Assembly: GCA_021014945.1 (NCBI GenBank)
Contig: MU266496.1
Span: 1 to 57,729, forward strand
Origin: Leucogyrophana mollusca
Lineage: Eukaryota; Basidiomycota; Agaricomycetes; Boletales
Reading direction: 5' to 3'
DNA length: 57,729 bases
A program made the translations under genes and the position numbers. Shown here in pieces: positions 37,325 through 57,729 of this stretch. The notes beneath the pieces were generated by a model. That model did not search any database. It worked only from the letters and a program-made list of their open reading frames with translations, and had not been told where the DNA came from. Each line of letters opens with the position of its first letter. Position 1 is the stretch's first letter.

Positions 37325-37747
37325 TGGGTATTTCTAAAGAACTATATTCTAGTATGTGTTAGATGTAGAAACATAGAATATAACCAATACAATACCTTTG
37401 AATTTGAAGACGGCGCTTGAGACTATGGACTTAGACATGGATGAGGGGTATTGCCCCAATTTGGTTGTGTTCAGATGCGTGACCAAACATTGGCTCATGC
37501 CAGCGGTAGTGCTCAATTAGGGCATGTCTGGATGCAGATGCACAACCAAACAGTACCCCATGGCGGTGGTGCGTGCGTTGTCAATCATCATGGAGTTATT
37601 ACCTAGTACTATATCAGCAAACCACAAAATTTCCATGCCCTCCATTGGGACTTTTGTGGTTTTCCTCACACTCGATCATTCAACAAACCCTTGACATGTT
37701 GCCCCTCACCTTCCATAAGTGCTTGCGATCAAGAAGCAGTGATCACG
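37325..37747. other. Spacer, no gene seen
   Basis: No recognisable coding sequence or element. A pair of similar 20-bp motifs (GATGCGTGACCAAACA and GATGCACAACCAAACA) occurs about 60 bp apart near 37475 and 37535. Confidence 0.25.
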
Positions 37748-38095: not shown

Positions 38096-38295
38096 TCACA
38101 TTTGGTAGCTAATGTTAAGTCACACAGGCTTAGACTTAAAATCATTATTTACCACACTTTCTGTTGCACTGTCAAAGCGCTGTAGTACTATATTATACTG
38201 TAGCGCTGCAAGGATTCTGTCAGAAGCTGTGTGGCGGCTGTGAGAAATTTTGTGGTTTGCTGATACATCTTGTAGAGTTTGGGCTATAAATTAGG

Positions 38296-38499: not shown

Positions 38500-39219
38500 G
38501 AATAAATAGTTGGTCTCAATCCCAGGAGGGCAGGGATGGAGACAGAAGCCAAAATACTCTACATGTGACACATGGTTCTAGCTCCCACAACCACGATCAC
38601 CATCATCACCATTATTGTCATTACAACCACCTATATGGCTAGTATATGGTATGTTGATTGTCCAGCCTGGCTGGCCAGTCAGAAATAGTGACCTCTCCTC
38701 ACAAAATGAGCCATAGATTAACAAACAGGAGTGCCAGCACCTCAGAATGACCTATGATTCTACAGTTTATGATGTACAAAAGGACTGACTTACCCAAAAC
38801 ACCCAAGAAAGCAATATTTCATTGATAACTACACACAGAATACACAGAATTTAGTAGGAGACTACCCAGAACAGTGTCAGCACAGGCCAAAAAGCCCCAT
38901 CACCTATGAACTTGCCTTTGATCAAAAAAGTGACTGCTTTTTGAGTTTTTGAGGGTGGGAAAAGGCAGGACACTGGTATGTTGACAATTTCAGAAGTTGG
39001 ATATAAGTGAAATCAAGCCCTAACACTCACCAGCTACTGGGAACAACAGAGGGCAGAGGTAGAAATAGCATGAGGCGCAGTGTTGTCAAAGGCTCAGGAG
39101 TTCTTGGAAAGTGCCAGGAAATGTTCTCACAGGTCAGTCAGCCAATCAGATTGTATCTTTGTCTTTTGTCTTTTTACCACGGGGTCATGCAAAACACTGT
39201 TATGTCTTAAACTGTAAGA
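38500..39219. other. AT-rich spacer, no gene seen
   Basis: No protein family recognised and no element ends found. A His-rich short frame at 38439-38642 comes from a CAC/CAT run and is not convincing. It probably contains more of the decayed Helitron. Confidence 0.3.
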
Positions 39220-39668
39220 TAAAATGAACTGGTTCTGGAGTCAGAAATGGAACATTGGCTTTAGCTTATGTGCTGTGCCTTTGTGCAAGGTCGGTTCCAG
39301 ATCTCAGAGGTAAGTTAGAAGGAGTCGGAGACTTGAGAAATATAAAGGGACAGAGAGAACTCTTAAAGAAAGAGCCCAGAGAGGATAATCAGAGGGGAAC
39401 TTAAGGCGGAAAGTGAAGAGGTGATAAAATTGATCTTTGAACTGAAGTACATAGATACATTGGAGCAATATTTATAGTACGGAGTCAAGCTGTGCTACAG
39501 AGCATATGTGGGTACAGTAACTGGAAACCAGTGCACAGAAACAATAAGTAAATCACAAGGGAAATGATTCCAGAGAATGGTGTGGGTCCAGAAAGTGGAA
39601 AGTGATGTAGTTTGACAGGCATAGGATTAGTCTGATAGTCAGAGGATAAATATAAGGCATAAAGCAGC
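39220..39668 (-). mobile_element. LTR-S, copy 3, truncated and CpG-depleted
   Basis: Aligns with the middle of the LTR-S copies at 6852-7599 and 51979-52707 but lacks both ends. Many CG dinucleotides of the other copies read TG or CA here (TCCGGAG to TCTGGAG, GTCGGAA to GTCAGAA, TGCGCC to TGTGCC). That pattern indicates an older copy decayed at methylated CpG. Confidence 0.75.
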
Positions 39669-39870
39669 TGTTCTTAAGAAAACTATCCTAAACTCTGGGT
39701 CTCCAATATCTGATCGGACCTACCACCCCCTAGTGACTATCAGTCAAGTACCAATCAGTCTACTATTCTATCCCAGGGCAACTAATATAACTGCTTTGCC
39801 ACCGAGCAACTACCGACTCCTGTTAAGTGAGGACATAACAAGTCCTGTAAGCACCTTTGTTCAGAACGCT
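39669..39870 (-). mobile_element. gypsy-4-type LTR end and primer site fragment
   Basis: Reverse complement of about 27195-27380. On the minus strand it gives an LTR 3' part, then TTGGAGACCCAGAG at the primer-site position and the start of the leader (TTTAGGATAGTTTTC). Truncated at both ends; the left end abuts LTR-S copy 3. Confidence 0.7.
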
Positions 39871-39878
39871 ACTAATGA

Positions 39879-40160
39879 CTAGTCAAGCACCAGTAAATGC
39901 TTTGTAGTAACTGCTTTTATTAGTAATTGACTAGTAAAGACTAGTGTATGATTTGTAGTGACTACTTTTATTAGTAATTACTAGTAAAACACTAGTGAAC
40001 ACTAGTAAGTCATTTGTAGTAACTGCTTTCATTAGTAATTACTAGTAAAACACTAATAAACATCAGTAGATGATTTGAATAATTGTATTAGTAATTACTG
40101 GTAAAACATTAGTAAACACTGGTAAATGCTTTGTAGTCACCAGTTTCATTAGTAGTTACT
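39879..40160. repeat. Minisatellite, about five units of 50-61 bp
   Basis: Tandem units each start near CTAGTAAA and contain ...AGTAAATG(C/A)TTTGTAGTAACTG followed by CTTTTATTAGTAATTA. Unit lengths vary (about 52, 50, 61, 56, 61) through gain or loss of short CACTAGTAAA motifs. AT-rich; directly follows the gypsy-4-type LTR fragment. Confidence 0.8.
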
Positions 40161-40178
40161 TATAATAGACTAACAAAC

Positions 40179-40359
40179 TGTAAGGGCTGTGCCCTTACTT
40201 ATATATTTATTTATTTACCTATCAAGGACTTACCTTAGTATAAAAAGCCTGATCCTTATCTAGATCAGATCAGATAATACCTTATATCCTTTTTTCACCA
40301 TAAATAATACCAACTGGTCATATTTTATTGAGTGAAATAAGGATTGGGCATCTACAACA
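40179..40359 (+). mobile_element. Possible short LTR
   Basis: 181 bp starting TGTAAGGG with an inverted TAAGGGC-TGT-GCCCTTA, a TATA box GTATAAAAAG at about 40237, and ending CTACAACA. No second copy, no target duplication (CAAAC/GTATC) and no element body, so this is only a suggestion. Confidence 0.28.
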
Positions 40360-42286
40360 GTATCTACTAATACTACCAGACCTTCATATTATGAAACACT
40401 CCTATATTTATTGCATACTCTCCTAATATATTACAGTATGTCTATGAAATGGTATTGCTGCTCCCCACATTTCTCCACATGGAGCACGAAACCGCGAAAT
40501 ACAGGCATTGGGAATGCACAAAAGATACAGAACACAGCAAGATATCTTGTCAGCCTTTGAAGTCACCAACAGACATCAGAAGCCACTCCTCCAAAACATG
40601 AAGAAGATAAAAGTGAAGAAGATGAAGAAAAAGAAGATGAAGAAGGTGAAGAAGTAGAAGACAAAAAGAAGCATTGTGGACGTCACTTAAAAGCTCTCAT
40701 GCATGATCAAAATGATTATTGAAGTTTTGAAAGATGTCTCAAAGAAGTAAATTAAGAGCACACAGACCACCAAGAAGGCCCCTCAGGATGACACCAATGA
40801 GAGGTGGACTTGCATACAAAGGCTTCCTCATAGAAGTCAAAAGCCAATATGTGTTGTCTCTATTCTCAATTCCATTATATTTAGCTGGTCATTGGAGGAC
40901 TTATGTAACACAAAGAGGACCAATCATATTATTGTCTGTATGGCAATTCAAAAACATAGCATAATCAGAACACATTGGGCTCACCTACTTAATGGTACAT
41001 AAAATACAGCAGCTCATATAAGAGCTGTTTTTGAATATCATTACTCCTTAAAGCTACACTTTGAGCATGAGGTGAAGGAGTCTCTGAGGCTGGATGTTGA
41101 TGGAAAGATAGAAGGGAAGGGGAAGGCTAGGGCAAGGGAAGGTTAGTTGGAAAAGAGGGGAGATGCAATGTGATTACAGTAAAAGCTGGAGCTTATTCCA
41201 CTGTCACTTGTATCTGTGAGCCTGTCTGGTACCAGCCTTGTCACATCTTATTGAGGATGAGCTATGGTGGAGATAATTGAGGCTATGGTGGGTTTTGAGG
41301 TTCATTACAACATCTCTACCATGTGATACCAGTTATCTTCTTCATACTGCTCTGTAAATAAGTCAGCCACTTCACAAAAGATGGCTATGCTAAATCCCTT
41401 AATGGCTGTACTTGTATTCTCAATACAGTAATAAATGTTGTATTAGCCTTATGACCCTTACACCTTTGCTGTACTCTAGTCAGGTATAGAATCATTAATA
41501 TTTTTTCACCCAGTACCTTATCCTAGTATTTGATAATCTCTGTGGACAGAGGGGAGCTCTGGACTTAAAATTCTATAGGTGGCAAAATAAGCACTTCTGT
41601 AAGGAAAGTTAGAAAGTAGCATATCATTGTTTCATGATGGCCTTGTTACCGTCAATCTCTCAGCAGACTATCCAAAGTATCTCATTATGCAATTTAACAA
41701 GATTATCAGTTCTCAAATCTGTTTATAAGGTGTCACAACCTGTTTCTGATGACTGGAACATACTTGTATGATTAAACCACACTAGGCTCTCTCTCTCTTC
41801 AGTCCTTTTTATTGTATAGAGAATATGAGTTGTTAAGGTTTGATCTATCATGAAAGAGGGTAGATAGGTAGAGTATCAAAACACCTGAGGGAAGCTCAAA
41901 TATTAAGCCAGTCTCCCAAATTACATTTATACAGAAATTGAAGTACAGATCAAACTAAGCTTTAATGTTATACTTTTCCTTGTGGTACTTCATATAAGCT
42001 TCAAAGTGTCTTGCACACCCAGATGTATAACTCCAAAAAATGTAAATCACAAATATAAGTCCAACCCAGAAACTAGAGCTAATAAATACCTATGCTTAAA
42101 GAAAGTGATCTAGGTGCCACTTAACTAAACTTGATTCTGTAAATATGTAATTTTATTATGTCAGTCTGATTAAGAAAGTCAGATTGAAGTATACCTTTAT
42201 ATTTTGTCTGTAATGTTCAAGCAGATAAATAAAGTACTGTCTATATATCTGGTTTTAATCTTCCAACATAAGCTTCTCATTTCTGA
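40360..42286. other. AT-rich region, only weak coding traces
   Basis: A plus-strand Lys/Glu-rich trace (GAAGAT/GAAGAAG repeats, 40600-40670) and scattered short frames with many stops suggest a very old gene or transposon. No domain was recognised and no long repeats with the rest of the window were seen. Confidence 0.3.
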
Positions 42287-42432
42287 CAGTGTCTTCAACA
42301 AACTGCTCTGCGAAAAACTTGGGGTAGTGGGGTGTGCACCCTGTCTGATGAGTCCAAAAGGACGAAACCCCTGGGAAAGGCAGGACGTTAGCGTGGTACG
42401 TTGGGTGATTCAGTGTCTTCAACAAACTGCTC
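42287..42432 (+). mobile_element. 102-bp ribozyme-bearing insertion flanked by 22-bp direct repeats
   Basis: The 22-mer CAGTGTCTTCAACAAACTGC + TC occurs at 42287-42308 and again, unchanged, at 42411-42432. Between the copies lie 102 bp (42309-42410) that are clearly richer in G+C than the AT-rich surroundings and contain a complete hammerhead ribozyme. The repeats look like a long target-site duplication such as target-primed reverse transcription leaves, or like the ends of a tandem duplication. The segment has no coding capacity. It may derive from a small circular or self-cleaving RNA. Confidence 0.6.
42321..42371 (+). ncRNA. Type III hammerhead self-cleaving ribozyme
   Basis: All conserved core parts are present in order. 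Helix III: GGGG (42321-42324) pairs with CCCC (42368-42371) and U42325 with A42367. The cleavage triplet is GUA, cleavage after A42326. Helix I: 42327-42333 pairs with 42338-42344 (seven pairs, three of them G-U wobbles) closed by the loop GUGC. Then CUGAUGA at 42345-42351, helix II GUCC (42352-42355) with loop AAAA and GGAC (42360-42363), then GAA at 42364-42366. The open helix is III, so it is type III with a short helix III, as in retrozymes and viroid-like RNAs. Activity is inferred, not shown. Confidence 0.88.
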
Positions 42433-43187
42433 AATTAAGAGAGAGTTTATCCTAATAACTGGAGAAAATAATTATATATATTTAACTTGTAGAAATTAAC
42501 TTAAACTGTTACACTGATACATGGCATTCTGTAGTATTTGAGAAGCAATACATCACAGTCTTTATGTTTTCTGGGTTACTGGAGTTCTGTTTGCTTGGCT
42601 GTGACAAGTAGCTATGAACTCCTATGACATAATGAACCTGGATGCCTGTCTTCTCTTTTACCTCTAATTTTTCCACCAAATAATTGATGAGACCATGGCT
42701 ATTTCAATATTCTGTTGAACATGGAAGGATTAAGTGTAGGAACTGGTAGAGAGGAGGACTGTTTCTGGAGTACAGATTACTTCAGAGGAACATTAACTTC
42801 AACCTATCCGCCCTTGTCATCTCCTTGATCTTGATCAAATTGATAGTTACAGTGGCCCAGAAACCTCTCACAAAAGAGTGAAACCAATTAAAGTGAGCTA
42901 GAGAAGCTTCTCCACAACCCTACCATTAAGTGACTTGCAGGGTTTGATAGCAGTAGGTCTACAATTCCTCCCTATTTCTTGGCCTTACCTGTATGACTAC
43001 ATCCACAGGCATGTTAGCTTTGTATGCACCAAGGCTCCATGAACTCTATGTAATGACCAAGCTTGCTCTATTAAAAAATAACCCAAACCTGCTCTTTAAC
43101 TGTAGTCTCCAGACAGCTACCTTAAATCACACTGATCATGAAAATTTGCATCTGGCCTCTGCCACATCCACTCCCTCAGAAACTACA
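42433..43187. other. AT-rich region, no gene seen
   Basis: Only short frames with frequent stops. No recognised domain and no repeat ends. Confidence 0.3.
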
Positions 43188-43235
43188 ATTCATCCAAAGG
43201 GAGGTGCAAAGGGGATCACCTCCCTTTGGATGAAT
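43188..43235. repeat. Perfect 19-bp inverted repeat (hairpin) with 10-nt loop
   Basis: ATTCATCCAAAGGGAGGTG (43188-43206) and its exact reverse complement (43217-43235) flank CAAAGGGGAT. A third, imperfect copy (AGGTGACCCCCTTTGGATGA) follows at about 43246. In an AT-rich, decayed setting an uninterrupted stem like this stands out. Confidence 0.85.
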
Positions 43236-43559
43236 GATACTTTTTAGGTGACCCCCTTTGGATGATGTGAAGCTCGTTATTGAGTTTCCTCCAGATGTAA
43301 GCATTCTCATCTCTTCCACCATTATGAAGCATGAAAATGTCCTGTCCAGCCCCATGAGAATTGACTGTCATTAAAAATTACCCAAGGCTCTTTTGTGGGT
43401 AGCCATATGTCATCACCAAATTGAGGAATCCTTGAGTTCAGGAGGCTGTCCAATAGTTGTGTGCACTTGTAAAAAATGCTGCTATAGTTGTTAGATGAAT
43501 GGACTAGTATCACAACCCCATTTTCTTATACAGTAATTATATCAACACTGCTTTAAAAG

Positions 43560-45000
43560 ATGTCCATTGGGGGAACAACCCAGCACCCTGAGTATGATGA
43601 TGCTGTGCTGATTATGATGGTTTGGGTCGTGATAATCACATACATTAACCAACACCCCTTTATGGCAATATTCAAAACAAAGGAGAGACAGATAGGGAGA
43701 GCCACAGCTAGGCTGACTTTAAGCCACAATGAAGAAAAAAGTAGTGATAAACCAGATAGAGTACAACATTACATGAGGGGTTAAGTTAGTATTGCCCCAC
43801 ATGAAGTTCCAAACATCGATCAGTATAGGGGGATTGTGTACCCTCCTCCACTCTTGTTTGGGGTCAAGTTAACAGATGTCAAGAAAGCCACAGTTTACGA
43901 AGACAGCCTGCACCCAGCTATCAGAGCTGTTTTCCTGAGGCCACCCAGAACTGGCCCATGTCTTACACCACTTACATTACTCGCACCAAGAATCACAAGT
44001 GCCACAGACAGTTCAGCATCCATCCATTCCCTCCTGAACTGCTGCCAAGATTAGGTACTACCATCTGATACAATTTAGCATCAAGACATGTGTGGCCCAT
44101 CATTCACTCTTTATGACTCAGCTACAGGGTGTGAAGGAGACGACCCAGCATCACCCACAGGATGCTTGGGGTGTTAAGGGCATTGTGGGAGTTTGTGCCT
44201 ACTATTCATAGTGGCTTTGATATGTCACAGCCTAGCTACAATGTCGGAGGTGACCTCCCATATAAAGACCAGATTCATTCAGAGTCTGATCAGGATCCCC
44301 TCCACAGATGATCACTGACAGTATTATATTCAATTTGAACTTGTCTCAAGTGCTCATCGAAAATTTCTCTCAAGCTACGCATGGGCCCAGACAGCCGTTT
44401 TTACTGGAATGATATCATTGCGGCTGTTGTTTCAGCACTCAATGCTCCTGTGATTAGGGAGACCAAGCACACACTTGTCCTGATCGCACCTCACAGTCGC
44501 ATACCTGTTGAGCACAAGGACGGGCATTTTGCTTGTTCCTCAGACCACTCTCTGTTTTACATTGAGGTTGGGTAAGATCCTCTACAGTTTTACGTCAAGT
44601 CAGTGGAGGTAAGAACCAGTTTTATGACATGGTTAATACTTATAATCAAAAGACTTTTCAGTGAATTTCCACCGGTATCATACCCACCTCTTTGTCCTCC
44701 GCACTCATTGACACCCTGTTGACACCACCCATAACAACGAGCAATAATTCTCAGGACCAATTCCTGTCTATTATAATCAACTTACAAGACCAGATGCTGA
44801 TAAGAAGTGGGGCTTTATCCAAGGGTCTTCCAGGCCCTAGTATGCTCCAGTTAGCATGGAAGCTGGAAGGTTTAGACTTTGATGTAGTGGCTGCCTTTGT
44901 TTGGGATAACAGCGATCCTACAGGGCTTACCAAAAATGTGAAGGGCTCAAATAATGCACTCAATGCACTTCTGAGTGTGTTGGAAGAGCACAAGGTTTGA
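43560..45000 (+). other. Weak plus-strand coding traces, possible gene relic
   Basis: Several open stretches with protein-like composition: QHPEYDDAVLIMMVW (43575), YPPPLLFGVKLTDVKKATVY (43838), FYWNDIIAAVVSALNAPVIR (44399) and LPGPSMLQLAWKLEGLDFDV (44827, in a frame open from 44692 to 45000). A possible intron GTAAGAAC...CTTTTCAG lies at 44609-44660. The pieces may belong to one decayed gene. I do not recognise any of them. Confidence 0.22.
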
Positions 45001-46335
45001 TTTGTTTTACACGTTGTTGCCACATATTGTAATTTAGAGGTTTGAATGCATATCATCATTGTGTCTGATTTATCATATAAAGGACATACGTAGAGCAGAT
45101 CCATACTTATAGGCTGGCACAAGTGTGGTTCCAGTGTGAGTGAGAATTGGTGGGGGCCACTGAGCTGTGTGTAATGGGAGTACCCCCTTTGTTAAGGTGT
45201 CAAAGTCTGAACAGTGTAGAATCAAATGTCATTAGTAGGGACACTAATAAGCTTCATCAAACCACAAATGTCAAGCCCTTCATACCCTATATTACAACTT
45301 TAGCTCAAGTATTTGGGTGTTAGGTGATACTGACAAATGCTAATATTAACTGTCTGGTGGAAAAATACCTAGCTGATCAGAAGAGCAACCACAGCCATGC
45401 TTTTTGTTCTAACCAGGAGATAGACATCTTTCTAGATAACCTGACTACTTCAGAGGAATGTATCACCAATGAGTCCCTACCTTCAACAGAGCTTGTGGTT
45501 TCTTCTACTTCACATCTTTTTCTTGTGCCATTTATGTATACTAGGGGAACCATGAGTTATAATTTCACACTATCACATCCTTTTATATCACGTCCTTCTT
45601 ACATATACTTGCAGGGCCCTTCAACTATAAGAAAAAGGCCTGATTTATAACCTGCTCCAAATCCTATCAATACACACCCTCCTATTACCTTACCACCAGC
45701 CCACAACCCTGTTTTTTTAATCACTAAGTGGATGATAAGGGTTTACTATAATCTTTTTTGAATAATCATAAAGTACTAAGGTCTCCCACAGAATAGCCTT
45801 CAGCTGATCTGAGACTAAGGGCTGATCCTTATCCTAACACAGCTTTTTGATAGAGCCCTTTGTCAGTTGACTGGAAATAGATCCATACGGTTTCTCTTGG
45901 TCATAGTTTGTGTGTGTATTTCAATAAATATCTTGTCTATAAAACAAAACCCATATACTTACCTTTTCTCCTACATCATTCAGTGTAGGTTTCATCTATG
46001 TTTTCCATACATCAATAAAACAATATTGATTGACAGATAAAAAATCGTGAGAGGGTTGCTTTTCCAAGGCATCAGTGTCGCATGGCAGTCCAGCACCCTT
46101 AAAAAGACTGATTCACAAGGTGGTGATAGGAACCTAGGTCCAGACACAAAATCCTAAATGAATTTCAGCTAAGATCTCTACACATAATTATATCACTGAC
46201 TTTAGTTTGTGTGAATGTCACACGAGGTGTCCAATCATCAAGGATCAGAGAAAAGCTGGTTGAGCATCAATGATACTGAGCTAATACTGTCAGATGAGAT
46301 GCTAACATCTTGAGTTTTGTGCTAGGGTTACATAT
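45001..46335. other. AT-rich region, no gene seen
   Basis: One 108-codon plus-strand frame at 45324-45650 (CLVEKYLADQKSNHSHAF) has no recognisable domain. The rest shows stops in all frames. No repeat or element ends found. Confidence 0.28.
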
Positions 46336-46830
46336 TTACAATAATATTTCTAGCAATCCTGTGCTCTGCAACCAAATATATGAAGTTCACTACAATCAGG
46401 ACATAGCAATTTGGCATACCTTGACAATCCTTAGCCATTCTTTTGTCTTGTAGATATGAGAATGAACAAAGTGTACCTCACAATGAACTCTGTTTGCTTT
46501 GAATTGAGCAAATGTAAGCCCATCTCGTTAATCATGGATCAAACTCTCTAACTGAAACCAAGGGTCATTATCAATTAGTGCCAGAAAGGATTTGACAACC
46601 ACTTACATCTATATTTTCATAACCAAAAAGCTGATATTGATGTTTCGAAGATAAACCTCTCTTGAAGTAGTGTAGTACCCACCCATAGATGCTCCTGTAT
46701 ACCTCTTTATCTTCAAATCTGAAGATGAAGCTTGGAAATAAACCTGGATTTCCATGGACAAAGCCTCCAAAGCTTCCATCAATCAGCACACTCTTTACTA
46801 TTGGCTAGAAATGTCAAGTGAGATGACCAT
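46336..46830 (-). pseudogene. Spliced gene relic of unknown family, cut by a copia insertion
   Basis: Minus-strand exons keep one phase across two short introns. Exon A (to 46607): VLIDGSFGGFVHGNPGLFPS, FRFEDKEVYRSIYGWVLHYF, KRGLSSKHQYQLFGYENID. Intron 46552-46606 (55 nt, GTAAGT...CTAAT...TTTCAG). Exon B (46420-46551): LESLIHD-stop-RDGLTFAQF, KANRVHCEVHFVHSHIYKT, KEWLRIVK. Intron 46366-46419 (54 nt, GTATGC...TTGCAG). Exon C (46336-46365): STGLLEILL and TAA. Canonical splice signals and a preserved phase argue for a real gene. The one internal stop is TAA for a likely Gln. Upstream exons are lost at the copia LTR that begins at 46840. No family recognised. Confidence 0.52.
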
Positions 46831-46839
46831 CCATGAGCC

Positions 46840-47195
46840 TATTAAAGCTCAGAAGAGCTGGGGAGTGAAATAGCCACTTGGTGGGCTGCCTTAAGCACTA
46901 GCACTAGTGTCCAGAGTAAGTAACTATCTATTAGTGATATAAACATACAATGGTATCATACCTAGTGGTCCAGAGTAAGTAATAAAAAAAGAAATTAACT
47001 ATGGGCACATTGTAGCTATATATCTACAAGGTAGGCTGTACATACACAGCTAACACAGCAAAGCAATGAGTACAGTATATCAAATAAGTGCAGCATAGCA
47101 GGACAGAGCTGTACTGTACCAGTGTGCACAGCAGTGCACTAGATCAAGGTAGTGTGCACTAGTGCACACTGTAGAGTGCAGAATCAGCAGAACCA
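46840..47195 (-). repeat. copia-1 3' LTR
   Basis: About 356 bp of the copia LTR family, ending (minus sense) TTTAATA at 46840 where TTTAACA is usual, and starting TGGTTCTGCTGATTC at 47195 without the first four bases TGTT. The left end abuts the spliced gene relic. Confidence 0.88.
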
Positions 47196-48093
47196 GGCAT
47201 GGCTCACAGATAGGATCTGGAAGGGCTTTTGACTCTAGCTTCAATCCAGTGACCAGGTTGCGATCAGTGAGTGTTTTGACACCTCCAATATGATGATGGG
47301 CAAGTCTCCTATGCCACAGAGCAAGATCTAGTGGAAGCGTCATGGCAGGAGAAGCTGATTTGCAGTTAGGGACAGTGGAACCATCCAGGTGTGCAGCACT
47401 GTTGTTATTAATTGATGCAGTGAAGAGAGGAGTGTTTCCAGAGTGAAAGAACACCATATGCGATGAGTTGATGGTAACTGTGAAGCCCTTGTGCTTGGTG
47501 AGGAATAGGACTGCCAGGAGGTTTGTCCAGAGGTCTGGGACGTACAGAACGCGCGAAAACTTGACAGATCTGCTTGATTTACCCTCCACAATTGGATTGA
47601 AGACCACAGTGCCTATTCCAGCAGAGAAAACGATACTGTTGTCTGCTAGCTTGATGGGGACTCGATGGGGCTGGTAATTGCACATCTAGTGACGATGGGG
47701 AGTCATGTGGGACGTTGCACCAGTGTCTGCTATCCATTCTACATCAGCATTGAACTGGAGGGGGCAGAATGGATCTGTGGGGTAAAAAGAGCACAGGACA
47801 GTGTTCATGACATATTCTGTGATCTCCCCTGAGTACTGTGATGCAGGAACAATATGGGGTGGTGTATAAGGCTGTTTGGAAGTCCTGGAATGCTGGGAAC
47901 AATGACACTGGGTGTGCTGAGGCTGGTACCTGCACATGACAGTGCAGGAGTGGACACAGTGGCCAGGGAGTGCACAGAACAAGCAGGAAGCCTTAGAGGC
48001 ACATCTGCATTGCTCTAGAGGTGCTAACAACGAAGTAGCAGAGTTGGAGGGTATTGCAGCACAGATAAAATAGGATTTGGGAGCAAGGCTCAA
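47196..48093 (-). pseudogene. pol: copia-1: gag tail, protease and start of integrase
   Basis: Minus-strand frame in one phase. It holds a zinc knuckle (CLFCALPGHCVHSC), the protease site EWIADTGATSHMTPHRH, a TAG, then MCNYQPHRVPIKLADNSIVF, GFTVTINSSHMVFFHSGNT, and the integrase HHCC region LWHRRLAHHHIGGVKTL with DPICEPCL. The TAG replaces the Trp expected after HRH, and the same codon is TGA in copia-2. Most of gag and everything behind the HHCC domain are missing. In Ty1/copia the protease matures gag-pol and integrase inserts the cDNA. Confidence 0.85.
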
Positions 48094-48150
48094 CCAAGAA
48101 GTGTCTAGGACGATTAGAGAGGATCCAGAGACTGTTGAAGTGGCTAGAGC

Positions 48151-48167
48151 GCAGGGCTCATAACCTG
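48151..48167 (-). other. copia-1 primer binding site (half-tRNA iMet)
   Basis: Directly behind the LTR end, minus strand, lies GGTTATGAGCCCTGCGC. It is exactly complementary to GCGCAGGGCTCATAACC, the anticodon-stem-loop part of eukaryotic initiator methionine tRNA as I know it. Priming by a tRNA(iMet) fragment is established for Drosophila copia and relatives. Confidence 0.82.
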
Positions 48168-48389
48168 TTAAAGCTCAGAGAGCTTGGGGAGAGAACTAGC
48201 CACTTGGTGGGCTGCCTTAAGCACTAGCGCTAGTGTCCAGAGTAAGTAACTATCTATTAGTGATATAAACATACAATGGTATCATACCTAGTGGTCCTGA
48301 GTAAGTTACTAAAGGGAAACTAACTATGGACATGATGTAGCTATATATCTACAGTAAGGGGTGTGCATGCAGCAAGCACAGCAACAATC
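48168..48389 (-). repeat. copia-1 5' LTR, truncated
   Basis: The U5/R side of the copia LTR (TTTAACA at 48168) is present but the U3 side is lost at 48389, where a plus-sense LTR fragment begins with TGTTCG. Confidence 0.85.
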
Positions 48390-48545
48390 TGTTCGTTCTG
48401 GTGATTCTGCACTCTCTGGTGTGCACTGCCTCTATTCTGTGCACTCCTGTGCACACTGCCACTGTACAGCTACTTATTGCTATGCTGCACTGATACCATA
48501 TGCTGTACTCACTGCATTGCTGTGTTGGCTGTGTATGCACAGCCA
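48390..48545 (+). repeat. Copia LTR fragment, plus sense
   Basis: Starts with the intact LTR head TGTTCGTTCTGGTGATTC and covers about 156 bp of U3, then switches at about 48545 to the copia-2 integrase. Preceded by CAATC (48385-48389). It was probably inserted head-on into the copia-1 LTR and later lost its tail in a deletion. Confidence 0.82.
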
Positions 48546-50629
48546 CAGTCCGCAGTGTACTGCAGGAACTCATTGGACATATACTCGCCACCCTTGTCAT
48601 CCCTAAGAGCCTTGATCTTGTGCCCAGTCTGGTTCTCAGCGTACGCTTTGAACTGCTTGAACGCAGTGAAGGTATCTGACTTGGCCTTAAGGGGAATAAC
48701 AACCCGAAAGCGCGAATAGTCACAGATGAAGGTGGCCCAGTAGAGGTATCCCTGGAAAGTGCGGTATGACAGCTTGTGGACATCCATGTGCACAAGGGCA
48801 ATGAGATCAGAAGTGCAATATTGCGACGATGGGAAGGGGTTGGCATACATCTTTCCTGCAAGACAGGGCTCACAGATAGGATCAGGCGACGCTTTGGAGT
48901 CCAATTTGAGTCCAGTGACCAGATTGTGGTCAATCAGTGTCCTAACACCTGCGATGTGATGATGTGCCAGTCTCCTGTACCACAGAGAGATGTCCAGAGG
49001 CAGAGTGGTGGCAGGGGAAGCATACTCCGCTAGGGCAGAGGTAGAACCGTCCAGAAACGCGGCGTTGTTGCTGTTGATGGTGGTAATGAACAGCGCAGTA
49101 CCAGCAGGGCAATAGAACGTCATGCAGGACGATGATATGGACACAGTGAAGCCAGAGTTGCGAGTTAAATAGAGGACAGATAGCAGATTGTTGCGCAGTG
49201 CTGGTGTTCGTTCTGGTGATTCCACACAGCTCTGGACGCTTCTACTGATGTCTGTGCATTGCTGTGCATTGCTGTTCATGCAGTGTTTGCTGTACTTGCT
49301 GTACATGCTGTACAGGCTGTGTTGCACAGCCTACTACCTAGATATATAGCTACATCGTCCATAGTTCGTTTCCCTTAGTTACTTACTCTGGACACTAGGT
49401 ATGGTGTACTTATGACCCTGCTGAATTTAGTTACTTACTCTGGACACTAGCTCCAGTGCTTAAGGCAGCCCACCAAGTGGCTAGTTCGCTCCCAAAGCTC
49501 TCTGAGCTTTAACAGCTGGTACATGCAAGACTCTGGTGAACTCCACCGCTCCAACACTCTTTCCCTCTATCACAGGATTGAACACCACAGACCCAACACC
49601 AGCAAAATAGACAATGGTGTGATTAGCCAGCTTGATTGGAACGTGCAGGGGCTTGTAATTGCGCATTCAGTGGCGATGTGGGGTCATATGAGAAGTGGCG
49701 CCTGTATCTGCATTCCAATCAACGTCAGCATTGAGCTGGAGAGGGCAGAGAGGATTGGAGGGATCAGAGGAACAAAGACTTGCATTTCCAGTAAACTCTG
49801 TGACATTCTGAGCGTTTTGAGTAGGGACAGTGCCCTGTGCAGCATTGGAGGATGAAGTAGAGGGTGTAGAAGAAGAATTGGACGATGTGGAAGACTCCTG
49901 GGCCTTGTTGGCATTCTTGGTGCGTTTCCTGCGCTGTCCTGGTGCTTGCTGCGCCTGGTGGGCTTCACTAGCCAGCTGCATGGCCTTGCACTTGTGTGTG
50001 CAGTGTCCAGGCTTCTTGCAGAAGTAACAAGTGACAGTGTTAGGGCATCTGCACTGTCCAGAGAATGCAGCGAGCACGGAGTCGCCTTGGGAGGTGCCAG
50101 AGCCATCAGCACAACGACGACGCTGTGTTTCCTCAGCTAGGAACGCAGCCTTGAGCTCCTGCTTGTCCAGGGACTTGAGAAGCATCAAGGAGGACACAAA
50201 ATGGTCGAATTCTTCAGGCAGAGAGCGAATAATGGCCATAGAGACCAGCCCAGCATCGAGATCTGCGAGTGTACAAGGCTTGGAAGCATCCTTAGAACGC
50301 AGTTCTTGGATCTTGGACATAGAGTCCTCAATCCTGGTAATAAGAGAGCTCAGGGCCTCGTCATCTTGCTTCCTGATAGAGAAGAAGTCGTCCCAGGCGT
50401 TAAATCGAGTACCAGGACGCTCCTGGATGTGGATGGATGCAAGGGTAGACCACATAGTGATAGGATCGTCCTGGACAGCATTTATATAGATCCTTTGCTC
50501 TGGGGAGAGGCCTAGATACAATTCCCCCGCTGCTTTGTCTGCTTTTGCATCCCAGGTAGCTTGCTTGTCATCCCTATAGCTAGGACACTTCTCCTTGCCA
50601 CTAACTGTTACAAATGGGCGAGTGACCAC
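48546..50629 (-). pseudogene. gag: copia-2: gag, protease and integrase, split by a solo LTR
   Basis: Minus strand. An ATG-like start near 50629 opens a 320-codon gag: LYLGLSPEQRIYINAV, DQEL-type capsid helix LMLLKSLDKQELKAAFLAEE, zinc knuckle CYFCKKPGHCTHKC, a Ser/Thr-rich linker, and the protease DWNADTGATSHMTPHRH. It ends in TGA (49667) where Trp is expected. The same frame continues with MRNYKPLHVPIKLANHTIVY and RVLHVPA up to 49515. After the solo LTR (49205-49514) it resumes with LRNNLLSVLYLTRNSGFT, LWYRRLAHHHIAGVRTL, DPICEPCLAGKMYANPFPSS and integrase core LVHMDVHKLSYRTFQGYLYW, DDKGGEYMSNEFLQY. It is cut at 48546. RT and RNase H are absent. Confidence 0.9.
49205..49514 (+). mobile_element. 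Solo copia LTR inserted in copia-2
   Basis: 310 bp, TGTTCGTTCTGGTG to GAGCTTTAACA, with a perfect 5-bp target duplication GCTGG at 49200-49204 and 49515-49519. Plus sense, opposite to its host element. Removing it with one GCTGG restores the copia-2 frame. Confidence 0.96.
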
Positions 50630-50642
50630 AGGAGAGAAAAGA

Positions 50643-50715
50643 TGACCAGACTAGGGATTGAACCCAGGACTTCCTGGACATATACCAGTCGCTCTAACCA
50701 CTGAGCTATATGGTC
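50643..50715 (-). tRNA. tRNA-like gene in the copia-2 leader, probably non-functional
   Basis: 73 nt fold into a full cloverleaf. Acceptor GACCATA/TCTGGTC (6 of 7 pairs), D arm GCTC-AGTGGTTA-GAGC, anticodon arm ACTGG/CCAGG (4 of 5 pairs), T arm CTGGG-TTCAATC-CCTAG. Box A (TAGCTCAGTGG) and box B (GGTTCAATCC) are intact and a TTTT terminator follows within a few bases. The loop TATATGT puts TAT at the anticodon place (isoleucine) but lacks the universal U33, so it is likely a pseudogene or the head of a SINE. It lies between the copia-2 primer site and gag. Confidence 0.52.
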
Positions 50716-50897
50716 AAGGGTAACACAGAGTTGAAAGGCTAGACAAGGTGAAGCACAAGCTAGACGTCTTACAGCAAACCAAGGACGAAGTATTTGAGAG
50801 AAGATGCTCAACCAAAACGAAGTATTGGGAGCAGATGCTCAACCAGAAGGGTCCAGGGGTGTCTTGAACGAAGTATAGAGGCTTGGTAGTGGCTAGA

Positions 50898-50914
50898 ACG
50901 CGGGGCTCATAACC
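50898..50914 (-). other. copia-2 primer binding site (half-tRNA iMet)
   Basis: GGTTATGAGCCCCGCGT on the minus strand, directly behind the LTR end at 50915. It differs from the copia-1 site at two positions but keeps the CAT-anticodon complement (GGTTATGAGCCC). Between it and the tRNA-like gene two imperfect 32-bp tandem units (ACGAAGTATT...GATGCTCAACCA) lie at about 50783-50850. Confidence 0.8.
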
Positions 50915-51232
50915 TGTTAAAGCTGGGAAGCTAACTAGCCACCAGAACTAGCAGTCCAGAGTAAATAACCATTATATTAGCAGTATAAGTGCATATGGTA
51001 GCATACCTAGCAGTCCAGAGTAAGTAACCAAAGGGAAACAAACTATGGACTCAATGTATCTATATATCTACAGTAGAGGCTATGCTACATAGCCAACACA
51101 GCAATCAGGCAGTACAGTAAGTGTCTGAAGCGAGGCATAGCAAGGAAAGGAGCTGTGCAGTCACAGCATGCACTGCAGTGTATAGGATAATGGCAGTGCA
51201 CACCAGGAGGTGCAGAATCACTAGAACAAACA
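50915..51232 (-). repeat. copia-2 5' LTR
   Basis: 318 bp of the copia LTR family, minus sense, TGTTTGTTCTAGTGATTC (51232) to GCTTTAACA (50915). The primer site follows at its 3' end. The segment 51233-51293 to the right is unassigned. Confidence 0.92.
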
Positions 51233-51293
51233 GAGGGCTGGCTATTTGGAGTTATAGGAGATACTGAACTTGCTTTCACCAGATGGAAGGACC

Positions 51294-51615
51294 TGTTGAA
51301 CATGGGAAGCTAACTAACTATCAGAACTAGCAGTCTAGAGTAAGTAACTGATACATTAGCAGTATAAGCGCACATGGTAGCATACCTAGCAGTAGAGTAA
51401 GTAACCAAAGGGAAACAAACTATAGACTCAATGTATCTATATATCTACAGTAGAGGCTATGCTACACAGCCAATACAGCAAAAGGCAGTACAATAAACAT
51501 CTGAAGCGAAATATAGCAATTAAAGGAGCTGTATTGTAACTGCATGCATTGCAGTGCATAGGATAATGGCAGTGCTCACCAGTGGACACCAGAAGGTGCA
51601 GAATCACCAGAACGA
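51294..51615 (-). repeat. Copia LTR, solo or 3' truncated
   Basis: About 322 bp of the same LTR family, minus sense. The U5 end reads TGTTGAACATGGG (two changes) at 51294. The U3 end breaks off at CAGAACGA (51615) without the final ACA and runs into a plus-sense copia fragment. No target duplication found. Confidence 0.82.
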
Positions 51616-51978
51616 GTCATTATACTGGTGGATACCTTGTTAAGATTGGCATAAGTGCTGTGTCCTGGCACTCCAAGCTTCAAGACACCATCGCTTTGTC
51701 TACCACTGAAGCAGAGTACATCGCGGCTGTGGAAGCAGGGAAGGAGATTGTCTGGCTGTGCAAGCTGCTACTGGAGATGGGCTTCCCTTCAACTACGCCT
51801 TCTGTGCTTCCCATTGACAACCAGTCAGCTATTCAGGTTGCAAAGCATCCAGAGCATCATGGGCACATGAAACACCTCAATCTGTGCTTCTACTGGCTTC
51901 AGGACACTGTGGACAAGGGGATTATTGTGCCCACCTTCATTCCCACTGTGGACCAGCCTGCAGACCTCCTCATCAAGC
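51616..51978 (+). pseudogene. pol: copia-3: RNase H C-terminal fragment
   Basis: Plus-strand frame in phase from TGGYLVKIGISAVSWHSKLQ through DTIALSTTEAEYIAAVEAGK, EIVWLCKLLLEMGF, DNQSAIQVAKHPEHHG and FIPTVDQPADLLIK. This is the copia RNase H end, with the STTEAEY glutamate intact. It is close to the copia-4 copy at 55642 on the other strand. It lacks the front part and is cut at 51978 by LTR-S, just before the expected KPL motif. The reading continues into the LTR for 95 codons by chance. Confidence 0.88.
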
Positions 51979-52707
51979 TGTCAAATCCGGTTCCTCCAGT
52001 GCTTTCCGGGGAACTCCGGACTAGGAGTAAGTGTAGGGGACTTAGAATAATTAGGGACAAACTATTCCGGAGTCGGAATGGGACTTTCGGCTTCAGCTTA
52101 TGTGCTGCGCCCTTGTCCGAGGTCATTTCCGGATTTCGGAGTATTCGGAGGGAAGTCAGAGGCTTAAGGAGAACACAAGAAATAAGAGGACTCTTAATGA
52201 AAGACTTCAGAGAGAATAGTCAGAGAGAAAGAGACTTAGAGGCAGAAAGGATGAGGAGGTGATTTAGATGATATTTGAACTAAAGAATAGGAGCATACAT
52301 CAGAGTAATATTTATACTACAGAGTCAGGCTGTGCTACGAAACGTAGGTGGATACAGTAACTGGAAACCGGTGCAACGAAACAATAAGCAGAATATAGGA
52401 GGAATAGTTCCGGAGGGTGGAGTGGGTCTGGAACTTGGAGGGGCTATGTAGATCGGACAGGCATAGGATTAGTGTGACAAGCGGAAGATAAATAATAGCT
52501 AAGTAAAAGGTGGTGCGTAGACAGAACTATAATGGAGAGGAACATACGAAAAGGGAATGGGGCAGTGTTCAGGACCGGGGGCAGAATGACGAGTCTGGAA
52601 AACGCTAAATCCAACATTTGTTAGACGGAAGGATCGGAAAAGTGTGGAAACGTGCGGAAAGGGACCGGAGTGATATATGAGGGCGTGTGGCTGCACGGGA
52701 TATGACA
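51979..52707 (-). mobile_element. Solo LTR-S, copy 2
   Basis: 729 bp, TGTCAAATCC to ATATGACA, with perfect target duplication CAAGC at 51974-51978 and 52708-52712. Inserted in the copia-3 fragment. Closely related to 6852-7599. Confidence 0.94.
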
Positions 52708-53580
52708 CAAGCCTAGTTATAGTTTAGCTATGTATTCTCAATGACACTTTTCTAAGATTAGGAGAAATTTTAGTGGATCTAGACAGCCTTTAGTTAGTTC
52801 AGATAATAGAGTTTGGGTTGTTTCTATGATTAAATGTGAATTTAAATCCAAGTATTATTAGGGTACTATCAGTGAGTGGGCTATATGAGTTAATACTTAA
52901 GGAAAATGTATATATAAGTAAAGTTATCTATAGAGTATGTAAAGTACTATAAATAGAGAGCTATTATTATAGATAGAGTCACTTTGAAGCTCTACATTTT
53001 TCTATCCAGGCTCATATCTAGAGAAGATATTGTATAAGGTATATTTCTTGTATACAGATATAACCTTTCTGATTAGAAGTCTTATAGAGGGTATATGGGG
53101 GTGGTGGGATTGCTCAGGGTTCTATCTCTCAATATTATCCCTTTAGCTTTTCTGTTCCTAGACATACACAAGGTTGTATGAAGGATATACTCAGTAATAC
53201 TATTCTAAGATAAGGGCTTCTTAATGTGTTATAGCCAGAAAGGTGTGTCTTTTATTATAGTATCTAGGTAAGATCAGACACATGAGATTATAACTTTCTA
53301 TAAATAATGATAGCCTACTATCATTCCTGACCAGCCTTCTATGGGAATATGAAGGCAAAGGATATTATATTGATCTGTCCTCATTTGAAGGTAGATACTC
53401 TTTACAATGATAACAATAGAGGGTAACTTTTACTTAGTCAGAGAATGTGGGGAAGGCTTTTATTAAGCTATTATATTTTGTTCTGAGATTAAACTATTCT
53501 CTTTCTATTTTGAGTTTAGGTAAATAGACTATGTGAACTAGGATATAAGATTATGTCCCTGCTGTTCCTACTTGTGTTTA
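52708..53580. other. AT-rich region, no gene seen
   Basis: Very AT-rich with stops in all frames. No repeat ends or domains found. After CAAGC the copia-3 RNase H tail is not resumed, so that element had been truncated before or was deleted here. Confidence 0.35.
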
Positions 53581-54320
53581 CTATTCTAAGTAAACATAAG
53601 AAGACTTTTTGAACATCTCTAGCATGTCTTTCTCATTGTCCAAGTTATAGAGGTTCTCACACCCCTCATCTGCAAGGATGTTAGGTTGACCAAGTGGACT
53701 ATCTAGATTCTCTATTCGTCCTGCACTCTCTCTCACTGACATGATTGCTATTGACATTTTCAAGGCCTTATTGACTTCAACAACATTCAACACATTCATT
53801 AAATATCTTCTCATTTGAATGAACCCTTTCCCATGGGATGTCGCTACTCAGCACCGATCCTAATCACGTCAAGGAGGGTTGTCTGAAAACGAAGAACACT
53901 ACTCACCTCGAAGATGGCCTGGTGCCCATGTTCGTTGGTGCACTGTCCTGTCACTGAGGAACCCATCGCTTCCATAGAACCCTGACCCCATCAGTAAATG
54001 ACCCTGCCAGAATGTGTTCAAACCAATTTATAACCATCTTCAGATCTGCCTTGAGACGATTCTGTGGATGAGAGTCAGTGAAAGGTGGGGCTGGGACTGG
54101 CGCAATGGCGGCCACTCACCAGAAACAATGGTAATGTGATGTCTTTGATGTTTTTCCGCATATAGCCGATTTTGATGTACTCTTCAGGATGCTGTGGCAC
54201 AGTCTGAACTGAGCACATTGATGAGTCTAGTGGTTGCATTAGTGTGAGATCACATACTGAGCCTTTGGGCTATGTTTCATGATAGGTGAGTTCCATGATG
54301 CAAACAATAATCAAAGGGGA
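53581..54320 (-). pseudogene. Spliced gene relic of unknown family
   Basis: Minus-strand coding with preserved phase: PKGSVCDLTLMQPLDSSMC, SVQTVPQHPEEYIKIGYMRK, NIKDITLPLFL. An intron at 54062-54119 (58 nt, GTGAGT...CATCCACAG) follows, then NRLKADLKMVINWFEHILAG, SFTDGVRVLWKRWVPQ and a TGA. A second GTGAGT donor lies near 53899-53904. A 77-codon terminal frame (53581-53814: MRRYLMNVLNVVEVNKALKM, LDSPLGQPNILADEGCENLY) may be the last exon. One TAG precedes PKGSV, at a likely Gln. No domain recognised. It may be a host gene or the gene of an old transposon. Confidence 0.4.
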
Positions 54321-55019
54321 TCACTGACTAATGTCACTACCCAGTCTTCTATAGTCGGGAAATCACAGTTTCCTGAGAGGACCCATCCGTGACGGGTGCT
54401 TGTTACTTTCAGACATCGCCCACATCTCAGTGCTACTGGTGACCTCAGGGCCCAATGAGGTGAAGTTGTTACCAATGCAAATCATTGTACTTCCCATCTC
54501 TGTGGTGTGTCATTTGATCTGGACTTCAACAGACTCCCAGTACTAACATGTTACTAATTTGTACTAAATGTTGTGGAGAAGGATCCACATCAATCACCAT
54601 AGCTCACACAAAATCACATATGATATTGAAGCCCTGTACCAGTAGGTATTGAATATCATGAACTTAGTTGATGAGATTAACAAACCACACTATCATCAAT
54701 TGAGGTCAGTCCGTGAACAACCTTTCCTTATACTACAACAGTGAGTTTTGTTGTTCCGAGTAATGTTCACTTGCTAACTATTGATTCACTACAAACTAGC
54801 ATGTAGTGGTCAGTTTACAAACATTGTTCTACATTTATTCGAAAGTGTACTAGTATACATTGAAGCAGCCAGGTTCAGTGGGTTCTCTATTTACAAATAT
54901 TGTGTTATATCTATTCAAAAGTGTACTACTAGTGCCCTAATATTTGAGTGGAGAAATTGACATGCCAGATTGAAGGTCGTCATGCATCTCTTCCCAAAAA
55001 GTGTAGCCTTTTCAATCTA
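54321..55019. other. AT-rich region, no gene seen
   Basis: No recognised coding sequence. GTGTACTA(G/C)TA and ACAAACATTGT/ACAAATATTGTG motifs recur near 54848 and 54918, about 70 bp apart, hinting at an old tandem duplication. Confidence 0.28.
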
Positions 55020-55166
55020 TTGAAACATGTTCTAAAAAACATCACCCATTAAAAAAAAGCAAAGTGCTTTTGAAACACATTTCAATAAGTTGGCCAGTCT
55101 TGTTTATTGAAATATGTTTCAAAAAGGTGTCACCCACAAGTCAGGTGGTTTTGAAACATGTTTCAA
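55020..55166. repeat. Cluster of four palindromic TTGAAACATGTTTCAA motifs
   Basis: The perfect 16-bp palindrome TTGAAACATGTTTCAA is at 55151-55166. Variants lie at 55020-55035 (TTGAAACATGTTCTAA), 55070-55085 (TTGAAACACATTTCAA) and 55108-55123 (TTGAAATATGTTTCAA). The first and third are each followed by a CATCACCCA or TGTCACCCA motif, so the array is two diverged copies of an 80-90 bp unit, each with two palindromes. Ends and origin unknown. Confidence 0.7.
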
Positions 55167-55296
55167 AACAGTCTTTTTGCTGGGCTGATTGTTGACATGT
55201 CAGCAATTTGTATAGAGATTCTAAGCGTCTTGACTGCATCGGGGCAGAAGCTCCATGACCAGATTCAACAAGAGATCGCAAAGGCCAGTCTGGACT

Positions 55297-55613
55297 TGTT
55301 AAAGCTCAGAGAGCTTGAGGAGCAAAATAGCCACTAAGGGGCTGCCTTAAGCACTGGGACTATTGTCCAGAGTAAGTAATTATAGTGCCAGGTCATAAGG
55401 ACACCATACCTATTGTCCAGAGTAAGTAACTAGGGGAAACTAACTATGGACATCGTAGCTATATATCTACAGTATGGGCTGTGCATACACAGCTAACACA
55501 GCATGGCAGTGAGTACAGCATGTACAGGAATTGAAGCACAGCAAGAGCTGTATAGTACCAGTGTGCACTGCAGTGCACAGGCCCAAGGCAGTGCGCAATC
55601 AGCATAGCAAACA
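55297..55613 (-). repeat. copia-4 3' LTR
   Basis: 317 bp, TGTTTGCTATGCTG (55613) to TTTAACA (55297), minus sense, directly behind the polypurine tract of copia-4. Left flank is GGACT (55292-55296); the other end of the element is outside or rearranged, so the duplication cannot be checked. Confidence 0.93.
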
Positions 55614-55620
55614 CTCCCCC
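55614..55620 (-). other. copia-4 polypurine tract
   Basis: GGGGGAG on the minus strand, immediately before the LTR start TGTTTGC. This junction fixes the sense of the whole LTR family (U3 starts TGTT(C/T)G). Confidence 0.85.
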
Positions 55621-56529
55621 ATGATTGCGCACATATGGCAATCAAGAGGCTCTAGGCATAAGTCCAAACATAGGGCGGAATAATTCCACCTTGAGTCGAT
55701 GCAGAGGCTTGGTAAGCAGGTCTGCAGGCTGGTCTGCAGTGGGAACGAAGGTAGGAGCGATGATCCCCTTGTGCACAGTGTCTCGAAGCCAGTAGAAGCG
55801 CAGATCAAGGTGTTTCGTCCGCCCATGATGCTCTGGATGCTTCGCTACCTGAATAGCTGACTGGTTGTCAATGTGGAGCACAGACGGCGCAGTTGAAGGG
55901 AAGCCCATCTCTAGCAGGAGTTTGCGCAGCCAAAGGATCTCCTTGCCCACTTCCACAGCAGCGATGTATTCTGCTCCAGTGGTAGACAGAGCGATGGTGT
56001 CTTGAAGCTTGGATCGCCAGGAGACAGTGCCTGTGCCAATCTTGACGAGGTATCCACCAGTAGAACGCCCTGTGTCCTTGCATCCACCATAATCTACATC
56101 AGTGGAGGTGGAGAAGAGCACATTGGAGCGAGAATCCGGTGCATAGACAATGCAGTAGTCCAGGGTGTCTTTGAGGTAGCGCAGCAAGTGCTTCATAGCG
56201 TTCCAATATGCGAGTCCAGGATCAGCAATGAATCGAGCAAGGGTGCTGACAGTGTATGCGATGTCTGGGCAAGTGCTGGAGGCAAGATAGTTCACAGATC
56301 CAACTGCTTCACCATAGGGAACACTGGCCATGAGTTTTTGGTCTTCTGGAGTCGTCATAGAGCGTGCAAGATGCGAATTGGGCAGCATAGGAGTGGAGAC
56401 TGGTTTACAGTCCGACATGCCAAAGCATTCGAGCAAATCAAGTGTGTATTGACGCGGTGAGAGGGAAATGGAGCGTTTGGAGCAGTCTCGATCAATCTTG
56501 ATGCCCAGCAGCTGTGTGGTAGCTCCAAG

Positions 56530-57174
56530 TGTTGAAGCTCAGAGAGCTATAGGAGCGAAATAGCCACTATAAGGGGCTGCCTTAAGCACTGGGACTAATG
56601 TCCAGAGTAAGTAACTGTATATTGCCAGATCATAAGTATAGCATACCTAATGTTCAGAGTAAGTAACTAGGGAACTAACTATAGACGATGTAGCTATATA
56701 TCTACAGTATGGGCAGTGCATACACAGCAAGCACAGCATGGCTGTGAGTACAGCAAACATAGTAAGCGAACATAGCAAGATACAAGCAGTACAGTACCTG
56801 TTCACTGTGCTGATTGCGCACTGCCTTGGTCCAGTGCACTGCTGTGCACACAGATACTGTACAGCTCCTGCTATGCTTCGCTTCCTGTACATGCTGTACT
56901 CACTGTCATGCTGTGTTAGCTGTGTATGCACAGCCCATACTGTAGATATATAGCTACGATGTCCAAAGTTAGTTCCCTAGTTACTTACTCTGGACATCAG
57001 GTATGCTGTACTTATGATCCTACAGAATATAGTTACTTACTCTGGACATCAGTCCCAGTGTTTAAGGCAGCCCCCTAGTGGCTATTTCGCTCCTATAGCT
57101 CTCTGAGCCCTAACAGTACCTGTGTGCACAGCAGTGCACAGGATCATGGCAGTGCAGAATCACCAGAGCGAACA
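56530..57174 (-). mobile_element. Solo copia LTR in copia-4, itself split by another LTR
   Basis: Minus-sense LTR, TGTTCGCTCTGGTG (57174) to TTCAACA (56530), with perfect target duplication CCAAG at 56525-56529 and 57175-57179. Interrupted at 56799-57115 by an opposite LTR. Without the insert it is about 323 bp. Confidence 0.95.
56799..57115 (+). mobile_element. Nested copia LTR, opposite orientation
   Basis: 317 bp, TGTTCACTGTGCTG to CCCTAACA, perfect target duplication GTACC at 56794-56798 and 57116-57120. It sits head-on inside an LTR of its own family and so forms a long inverted repeat with it. Confidence 0.96.
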
Positions 57175-57231
57175 CCAAGGTCGCGCAGTTTGAAGTGCTT
57201 GGCTAGTTCTGCGATGATCTGATCAATAGCA

Positions 57232-57725: not shown

Positions 57726-57729
57726 CTCC

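Follow-up and report, generated by a model that had tools for sequence, protein, structure and literature searches.

The window analysed here, the whole 57,729-nucleotide contig C170 of a 32.34-Mb, 545-contig assembly of Leucogyrophana mollusca, carries a 102-bp insert (42309-42410, forward strand) that contains a complete predicted type III hammerhead ribozyme (42321-42371) and is homologous to three other places in the genome. We lean towards reading this insert as a truncated member of a small, non-autonomous family of retroposed, low-copy noncoding RNAs that carry the hammerhead near the 5' end.

A hammerhead in an insert between direct repeats

The insert, delimited by genome search and alignment, sits between perfect 22-bp direct repeats (22 of 22 positions identical, 124 bp apart), and the coordinates given for both in the initial annotation were right. 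Both the left repeat (42287-42308) and the right one (42411-42432) were recovered by repeat search; the pair is the sole direct-repeat family reported in 42200-42500 at a minimum length of 12. Homology to the other three loci spans at most 42309-42411, which is the inter-repeat stretch plus one shared base. This coincidence of homology boundaries and direct repeats supports the proposed insertion with target duplication. Tandem duplication, the alternative offered at the same time, was rejected, since there are three homologues on other contigs with similarity ending at the repeats. In a genome search with the flanks (41700-43000), element copies were the only matches, and no empty site was found for the window copy.

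The predicted ribozyme has every invariant base that the initial annotation ascribed to it, all on the forward strand. The helix III 5' strand GGGGT (42321-42325, including U16.1) faces A15.1 and the 3' strand CCCC (42367-42371), as indicated by sequence and cmscan, and cleavage is predicted 3' of A17 (42326) from the GTA triplet. Helix I is formed by GTGGGG (42327-42332) and CCCTGT (42339-42344), an assignment that draws on sequence and pair count. The core CTGATGA (42345-42351), which also matches the core pattern, is followed by helix II, GTCC-AAAA-GGAC (42352-42363), and the core GAA (G12 A13 A14; 42364-42366). Helix I thus has 6 pairs (three of them G-U), helix II 4, and helix III 5. Of the type III features, the window copy has CUGAUGA, GAA, an NUH triplet, three helices, and an open helix III.

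Covariance scoring and descriptor matching gave different pictures of this stretch. In a cmscan of 241 bases against 4227 Rfam families, RF00008 scored 27.1 bits at the insert (E 5.9e-4); among the other copies, L004 scored 29.2 bits and L002 24.8 bits, and L003 was unlisted at E ≤ 1. The Rfam gathering score for RF00008 is 48.5 bits, and no hammerhead reached it in the window scan. A whole-genome RF00008 search returned no matches at E ≤ 0.001, as did its 14 control genomes. A covariance score below threshold had been named beforehand as a refuting outcome, and 27.1 against 48.5 bits is formally that outcome. By contrast, a strict type III descriptor (CTGATGA, helix II of at least 3 pairs, GAAA, helices I and III of at least 4 pairs each, and U16.1-A15.1) matched one place in the window when both strands were scanned and none in 40 Mb of order-1 simulated sequence scanned on one strand; the CTGATGA core with helix II alone occurred 14 times in 40 Mb of such sequence. 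We conclude that the E-value, the descriptor control, and the three homologous copies outweigh the sub-threshold covariance score. A loose gapped core pattern, which says little by itself, gave 44 matches in the genome compared to 23 for the reversed pattern, and GTCC-NAAA-GGAC was present in two of the 44, the window copy and L002.

The fold of the insert is as stable as that of its shuffles (z -0.06). The minimum free energy (MFE) of the 57-nt hammerhead stretch is -18.8 kcal/mol compared to -16.8 kcal/mol for the hammerhead fold, and in the MFE structure C3 and U4 of the core, which the hammerhead keeps unpaired, are drawn into helix I. Therefore, thermodynamics alone is no argument for a hammerhead. 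A chance resemblance or an ordinary tandem repeat would agree with this shuffle-like stability and with the unreached gathering score. Nevertheless, we consider that reading hardly credible, and it is already contradicted by the homologous copies, which keep largely the same helices, and by the absence of strict-descriptor matches in simulated sequence; the direct repeats at the homology boundaries also speak against it.

Further copies, their insertion sites, and their ribozyme lesions

The initial annotation had called for a search for more copies of the 102-bp segment. A genome search with 42280-42440 found three, at 79-84% identity and on other contigs: L002 (C204), L003 (C529), and L004 (C307). 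The core pattern with up to three mismatches matched the same four places in the whole genome, compared to none for the reversed pattern, and revealed no fifth copy. A 20-base pattern from the 3' part, also with up to three mismatches, matched five places compared to one for the control; these were L002, L003, L004, and two 3-mismatch places in C26 and C457. Each of the four copies is one element piece, with no dimer, tandem unit, or second hammerhead.

The window copy appears from these alignments to be a truncated copy of a longer element, because the element is longer elsewhere (about 157 bp in L003 and within an insertion of up to 606 bp in L002). The 3' part of the insert (42372-42410, forward strand) is common to the other copies, which run 59-71 nt further into a terminal hairpin that the window copy lacks and share the 3' end GGGTCTA after it. 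One pair in this hairpin reads A-U in L003, G-U in L002, and C-G in L004 in the alignments, and this single two-sided change lends modest support to pairing. Upstream of the window-copy start point, L002 and L004 have about 70 bp in common, including TATAAAAGGG, which starts 22 nt before that point in both. TATAAAA thus lies upstream of the start point in two copies, and 22 nt is a shorter spacing than Pol II usually has in animals. No poly(A) was found at any of the four copies. Judged by eye against the consensus, the hammerhead resembles a Pol III A box and, weakly, a B box; no TTTT follows the A/B-box-like stretch within the insert. Candidate assignments to LTR, terminal-inverted-repeat, or Helitron elements were rejected, as no paired repeats were seen by eye in the aligned ends, and the 12-bp duplication at L003 (see below) also speaks against a Helitron.

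The insertion sites of the other copies differ. L003 is flanked by a 12-bp target duplication, ATCCTTTTCTTG, and the element sequence there begins 1-3 nt past the hammerhead cleavage site, a range left by bases that could belong to either the element or the duplication. By our own estimate, a start this near the cleavage site has a chance probability of about 2-4%, given about 157 possible starts. L002 lies in a QDE-1-type RdRP gene, whose paralog L038 (RdRP identity backed by PF05183, E 3e-7) lacks the insertion and thereby provides an empty site: L002 840-1068 and 1675-2000 (reverse strand) match L038 1273-1501 and 1501-1827 at 92-93%. The 606 extra bp end with the L002 copy, and their first 362 bp (with a 2-bp overlap with the shared part) matched only themselves; the target duplication is at most about 1 bp. 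A protein search with the RdRP fragment gave six hits, the best of them at 58% identity, and the QDE-1-type RdRP, like the genome size and the retroelements, points to a fungal host. About 0.3 kb from the hammerhead insertion, L002 1055-1142 forms an inverted repeat whose arms measure about 30 nt; its match to a microRNA precursor family scored far under the cut-off for that family. At L004, no convincing target duplication was found within 4 kb upstream, where there were just 7-8 bp matches. The right flank of L004 is part of a repeat, which accounted for 17 of the 21 search matches, the other four being the element copies including L004. Seven examined copies of this repeat continue upstream of the junction. 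Similarity upstream of L004 is weak: the score was reached by 0-2 of 300 shuffles for three of the seven repeat copies and by 10-266 of 300 for the other four, which weakly suggests that about 50 bp of the target were deleted on insertion. Altogether, target duplications (12 and 22 bp) were present at two of the four copies and the common 3' end at three of the four.

As predicted from sequence, only the window copy among the four is a fully intact ribozyme; each of the other three is damaged either at the cleavage site or in the core. L002 retains CTGATGA and GAA but carries one additional A at the cleavage site, and its helix III is weaker. L003 carries G12A and has lost the helix III 5' strand. 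L004 carries G8A and G12A and has the longest helix III, of 8 pairs. The G12A changes in L003 and L004 are CpG to CpA, as would be expected from decay after insertion, and they leave room for descent from a common inactive source. The four copies gave no significant sign of selection on the ribozyme: variation in the core and helices was not significantly lower than that in the 3' part (Fisher p = 0.43). Paired bases occupy 91.8% of 61 cells in the hammerhead helices, the same as in column shuffles and more than in slid versions (36-56%); all four helix II pairs are invariant in all four copies. Among these copies, the hammerhead helices showed one-sided changes only and no two-sided change. 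The 165-nt L004 RNA has the hammerhead helices in its MFE structure and is far more stable than its shuffles (z -4.74, with 0 of 200 as stable), whereas the L003 and L002 RNAs fold no better than most shuffles (z -1.36 and -0.84). When the three longer copies were folded together with RNAalifold, the consensus did not contain the hammerhead and its covariation term was unfavourable (+1.23), with a two-sided change in 3 of 44 pairs.

The surroundings of the window copy (39001-48000) are depleted of CpG (o/e 0.15, mean 0.64 CpG per 102 bp), and the insert contains 5 CpGs (o/e 0.77); of the 8659 other overlapping windows of 102 bp, 19 contain that many or more. Because it has kept its CpGs amid CpG-depleted flanks, the window copy appears to be young relative to its surroundings, which upholds, in relative terms only, the recent insertion first proposed. 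Element and flank o/e values are 0.70 and 0.63 for L002, 0.48 and 0.67 for L003, and 0.24 and 0.27 for L004. No copy in the assembly is closer to the window copy than 84% identity, which leaves three possibilities for its immediate donor: absence from the assembly, loss, or an extrachromosomal location. Alternatively, this divergence may have arisen after insertion, and a duplication of 22 bp is too short to decide against that.

Origin of the element

The element is best read from its sequence as retrozyme- or SINE-like, with a 3' terminal hairpin ending in GGGTCTA in the longer copies. In the mechanism that we favour, a source locus would be transcribed, and the hammerhead could cut the transcript 18 nt from the window-copy start point. 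The reverse transcriptase of another element would then copy the RNA into the genome, and the pasting-in would yield the target duplications of 12 to 22 bp that are observed. L003 has the appearance of a copy made from the 3' cleavage product, and the window copy that of an RNA left uncut and truncated at its 3' end. The family provides four copies, two target duplications, one empty site, three common 3' ends, and one 5' end near the cleavage site. In addition, we count in favour of retroposition the L004 fold compared to shuffles, the hairpin pair changes, CpG retention in the window copy, and the presence of endonuclease-type LINEs; against it stand the lack of poly(A) and of a good match to the LINE loci, the lack of a clear duplication at L002 and L004, the missing 3' hairpin and empty site of the window copy, the TATAAAA spacing, the lack of significant ribozyme conservation and of two-sided changes in the hammerhead helices, the consensus fold and the L002 and L003 folds, and the lesions in three of the four copies. 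The more specific proposal of an as yet undescribed fungal mobile RNA of about 100-240 nt, whose hammerhead sets the 5' end of the reverse-transcribed RNA, as a minimal self-cleaving retroposon with possibly a non-chromosomal RNA donor, is tentative and we hold it to be rather doubtful.

LINEs with endonuclease and reverse transcriptase domains are present in the genome, two of them with open frames of 1375 and 1387 aa. Comparison of the element with five LINE-endonuclease loci, for two of which the 3' ends were located, gave nothing better than E 0.03. Those two LINEs end in a hairpin followed by about two dozen A residues and have no tail in common with the element, so that no partner LINE emerged among the 3' ends compared. 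A 72-bp LINE 3' end (L066 7404-7475; L067 8566-8637, reverse strand) is common to L066 and L067 at 93% identity, with the hairpin before the poly(A), and these LINEs are 66% identical over 2.2 kb of their coding part.

An origin at the DNA level, in which sequence from a noncoding RNA locus or DNA element served as filler during repair of a staggered break and the hammerhead was a passenger with no RNA intermediate, is unlikely, though it accounts for several features. It is consistent with the lack of a clear duplication at L002 and L004, with the truncation of the window copy at both ends relative to these two, and with the target deletion of about 50 bp that the repeat copies at L004 suggest on weak alignment evidence. 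Against filler are the perfect 12- and 22-bp duplications at two copies, the same 3' end after the hairpin in three copies, and the L003 5' end 1-3 nt after the cleavage site (about 2-4% by chance).

Two other readings are, in our view, improbable to about the same degree. A viroid-like or satellite RNA maintained outside the fungal chromosomes could have been the donor, reverse transcribed in the way of integrated virus fragments. The relative youth of the window copy and the 84% identity of its nearest relative in the assembly fit such a donor. Infectious circular RNAs can carry type III hammerheads (PMC7761336), and Trichoderma supports the replication of a 712-nt circular RNA that has a hammerhead in one of its strands (PMC13343976). 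However, a shared upstream stretch with TATAAAA is kept in two copies, no copy has more than one hammerhead, and the helix I block pattern gave 0 matches in one IMG/VR scan. The opposite strand of the window also has no hammerhead, although a ribozyme in one strand is allowed in this class. As for a canonical retrozyme, that is, a tandem or LTR-flanked unit of which solo pieces were left, the parts list is the same (short, noncoding, hammerhead-bearing, non-autonomous). Duplications of more than 4 bp, when present, are described for animal non-LTR retrozymes (PMC7229834, in part), and 15 bp for Nematostella repeats (PMC4918200, in part). Nevertheless, none of the four copies has a dimeric or tandem arrangement or a 4-5 bp duplication, the two clear duplications being 12 and 22 bp.

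Known hammerhead elements and the rest of the contig

In R2-type LINEs, an HDV-like ribozyme sets the 5' end of the reverse-transcribed RNA. The 5' end of the element described here would likewise be set by a ribozyme, of another class, and unlike in R2-type LINEs, a cut here would drop one helix III strand from the copy. R2-type LINEs are named together with an HDV-like ribozyme in the portions consulted of PMC3088659. Animal non-LTR retrozymes, as described in PMC7229834, are also short, noncoding, and without LTRs and presumably use a foreign reverse transcriptase; their hammerheads are of type I and lie in tandem repeats with units of about 150-450 bp. In contrast, the element here is of type III, comes from another lineage, and has four copies, all single units instead of tandem units delimited by hammerheads. 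The plant LTR retrozymes, as partly covered in PMC4918200, share with it a type III hammerhead and a noncoding, non-autonomous nature; their LTRs of about 300-400 bp and 4-bp duplications have no counterpart at these loci.

In fungi, interspersed repeats of Yarrowia lipolytica carry hammerheads (PMC3088659), and Pleurotus ostreatus has five Rfam Hammerhead_3 loci (PMC5040776); like the present family, these are multi-copy genomic hammerheads. The accounts, in the parts available, contain no target duplications, empty site, or cleavage-site 5' end, and they are thus set apart from ours by description and not by sequence. Fungal viroid-like RNAs and ambiviruses also have a hammerhead in a fungal RNA; in the sections consulted of PMC13343976 and PMC10162972 these are circular replicating RNAs, whereas the present element is known from DNA alone. 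No description of such an element was found in the open-licence literature that was covered in part, with subscription papers and preprints outside its scope. The initial suggestion of a minimal and perhaps undescribed insertion therefore stands in part: the element is longer in its other copies, and fungal hammerheads and hammerhead elements of this general kind are in print, but this short form was not found described in the texts covered.

Searches of IMG/VR with the core and helix-I patterns gave 2 and 0 contigs, respectively, and the 2 contain an unrelated type I hammerhead. The identical stretch in these contigs (L047 2673-2697, reverse strand; L048 804-828, forward strand) folds as a type I hammerhead with three helices, and nothing from Rfam reached the gathering score there. 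A 16-base 3' pattern matched 14 IMG/VR contigs, about the number expected by chance by our own estimate, and one scan of prokaryote genomes gave 0 matches. In plants and animals, hammerheads are a mark of small mobile RNAs with a possible relationship to viroids. A type III case in a fungus, having dated insertions, an empty site, and one copy that starts at the cleavage site, would be a simple system for asking whether retroposition is served by self-cleavage and whether sequence passes between viroid-like RNAs of fungi and elements in their genomes.

Elsewhere the contig is rich in LTR retrotransposon pieces: domains of reverse transcriptase, RNase H, integrase, or copia-type gag were identified in six of the eight frames tested. 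The region 39001-48000 has a CpG o/e of 0.14-0.19 in 3-kb steps compared to 0.28-0.86 elsewhere in the contig, and looks like old, methylated, decayed DNA. A tRNA-Ile(TAT)-like sequence (50641-50716, reverse strand; 49.1 bits), followed by TTTT, lies directly upstream of a copia-type gag frame (49667-50629, reverse strand); instead of being a host tRNA gene, it may belong to the leader or LTR of that element. Nested direct repeats are numerous in 46838-57729, where their motifs include AGTTACTTACTCTGGAC and GTAGCTATATATCTACA, and a perfect 22-nt inverted repeat (37612-37633 and 38244-38265) has arms 610 nt apart.
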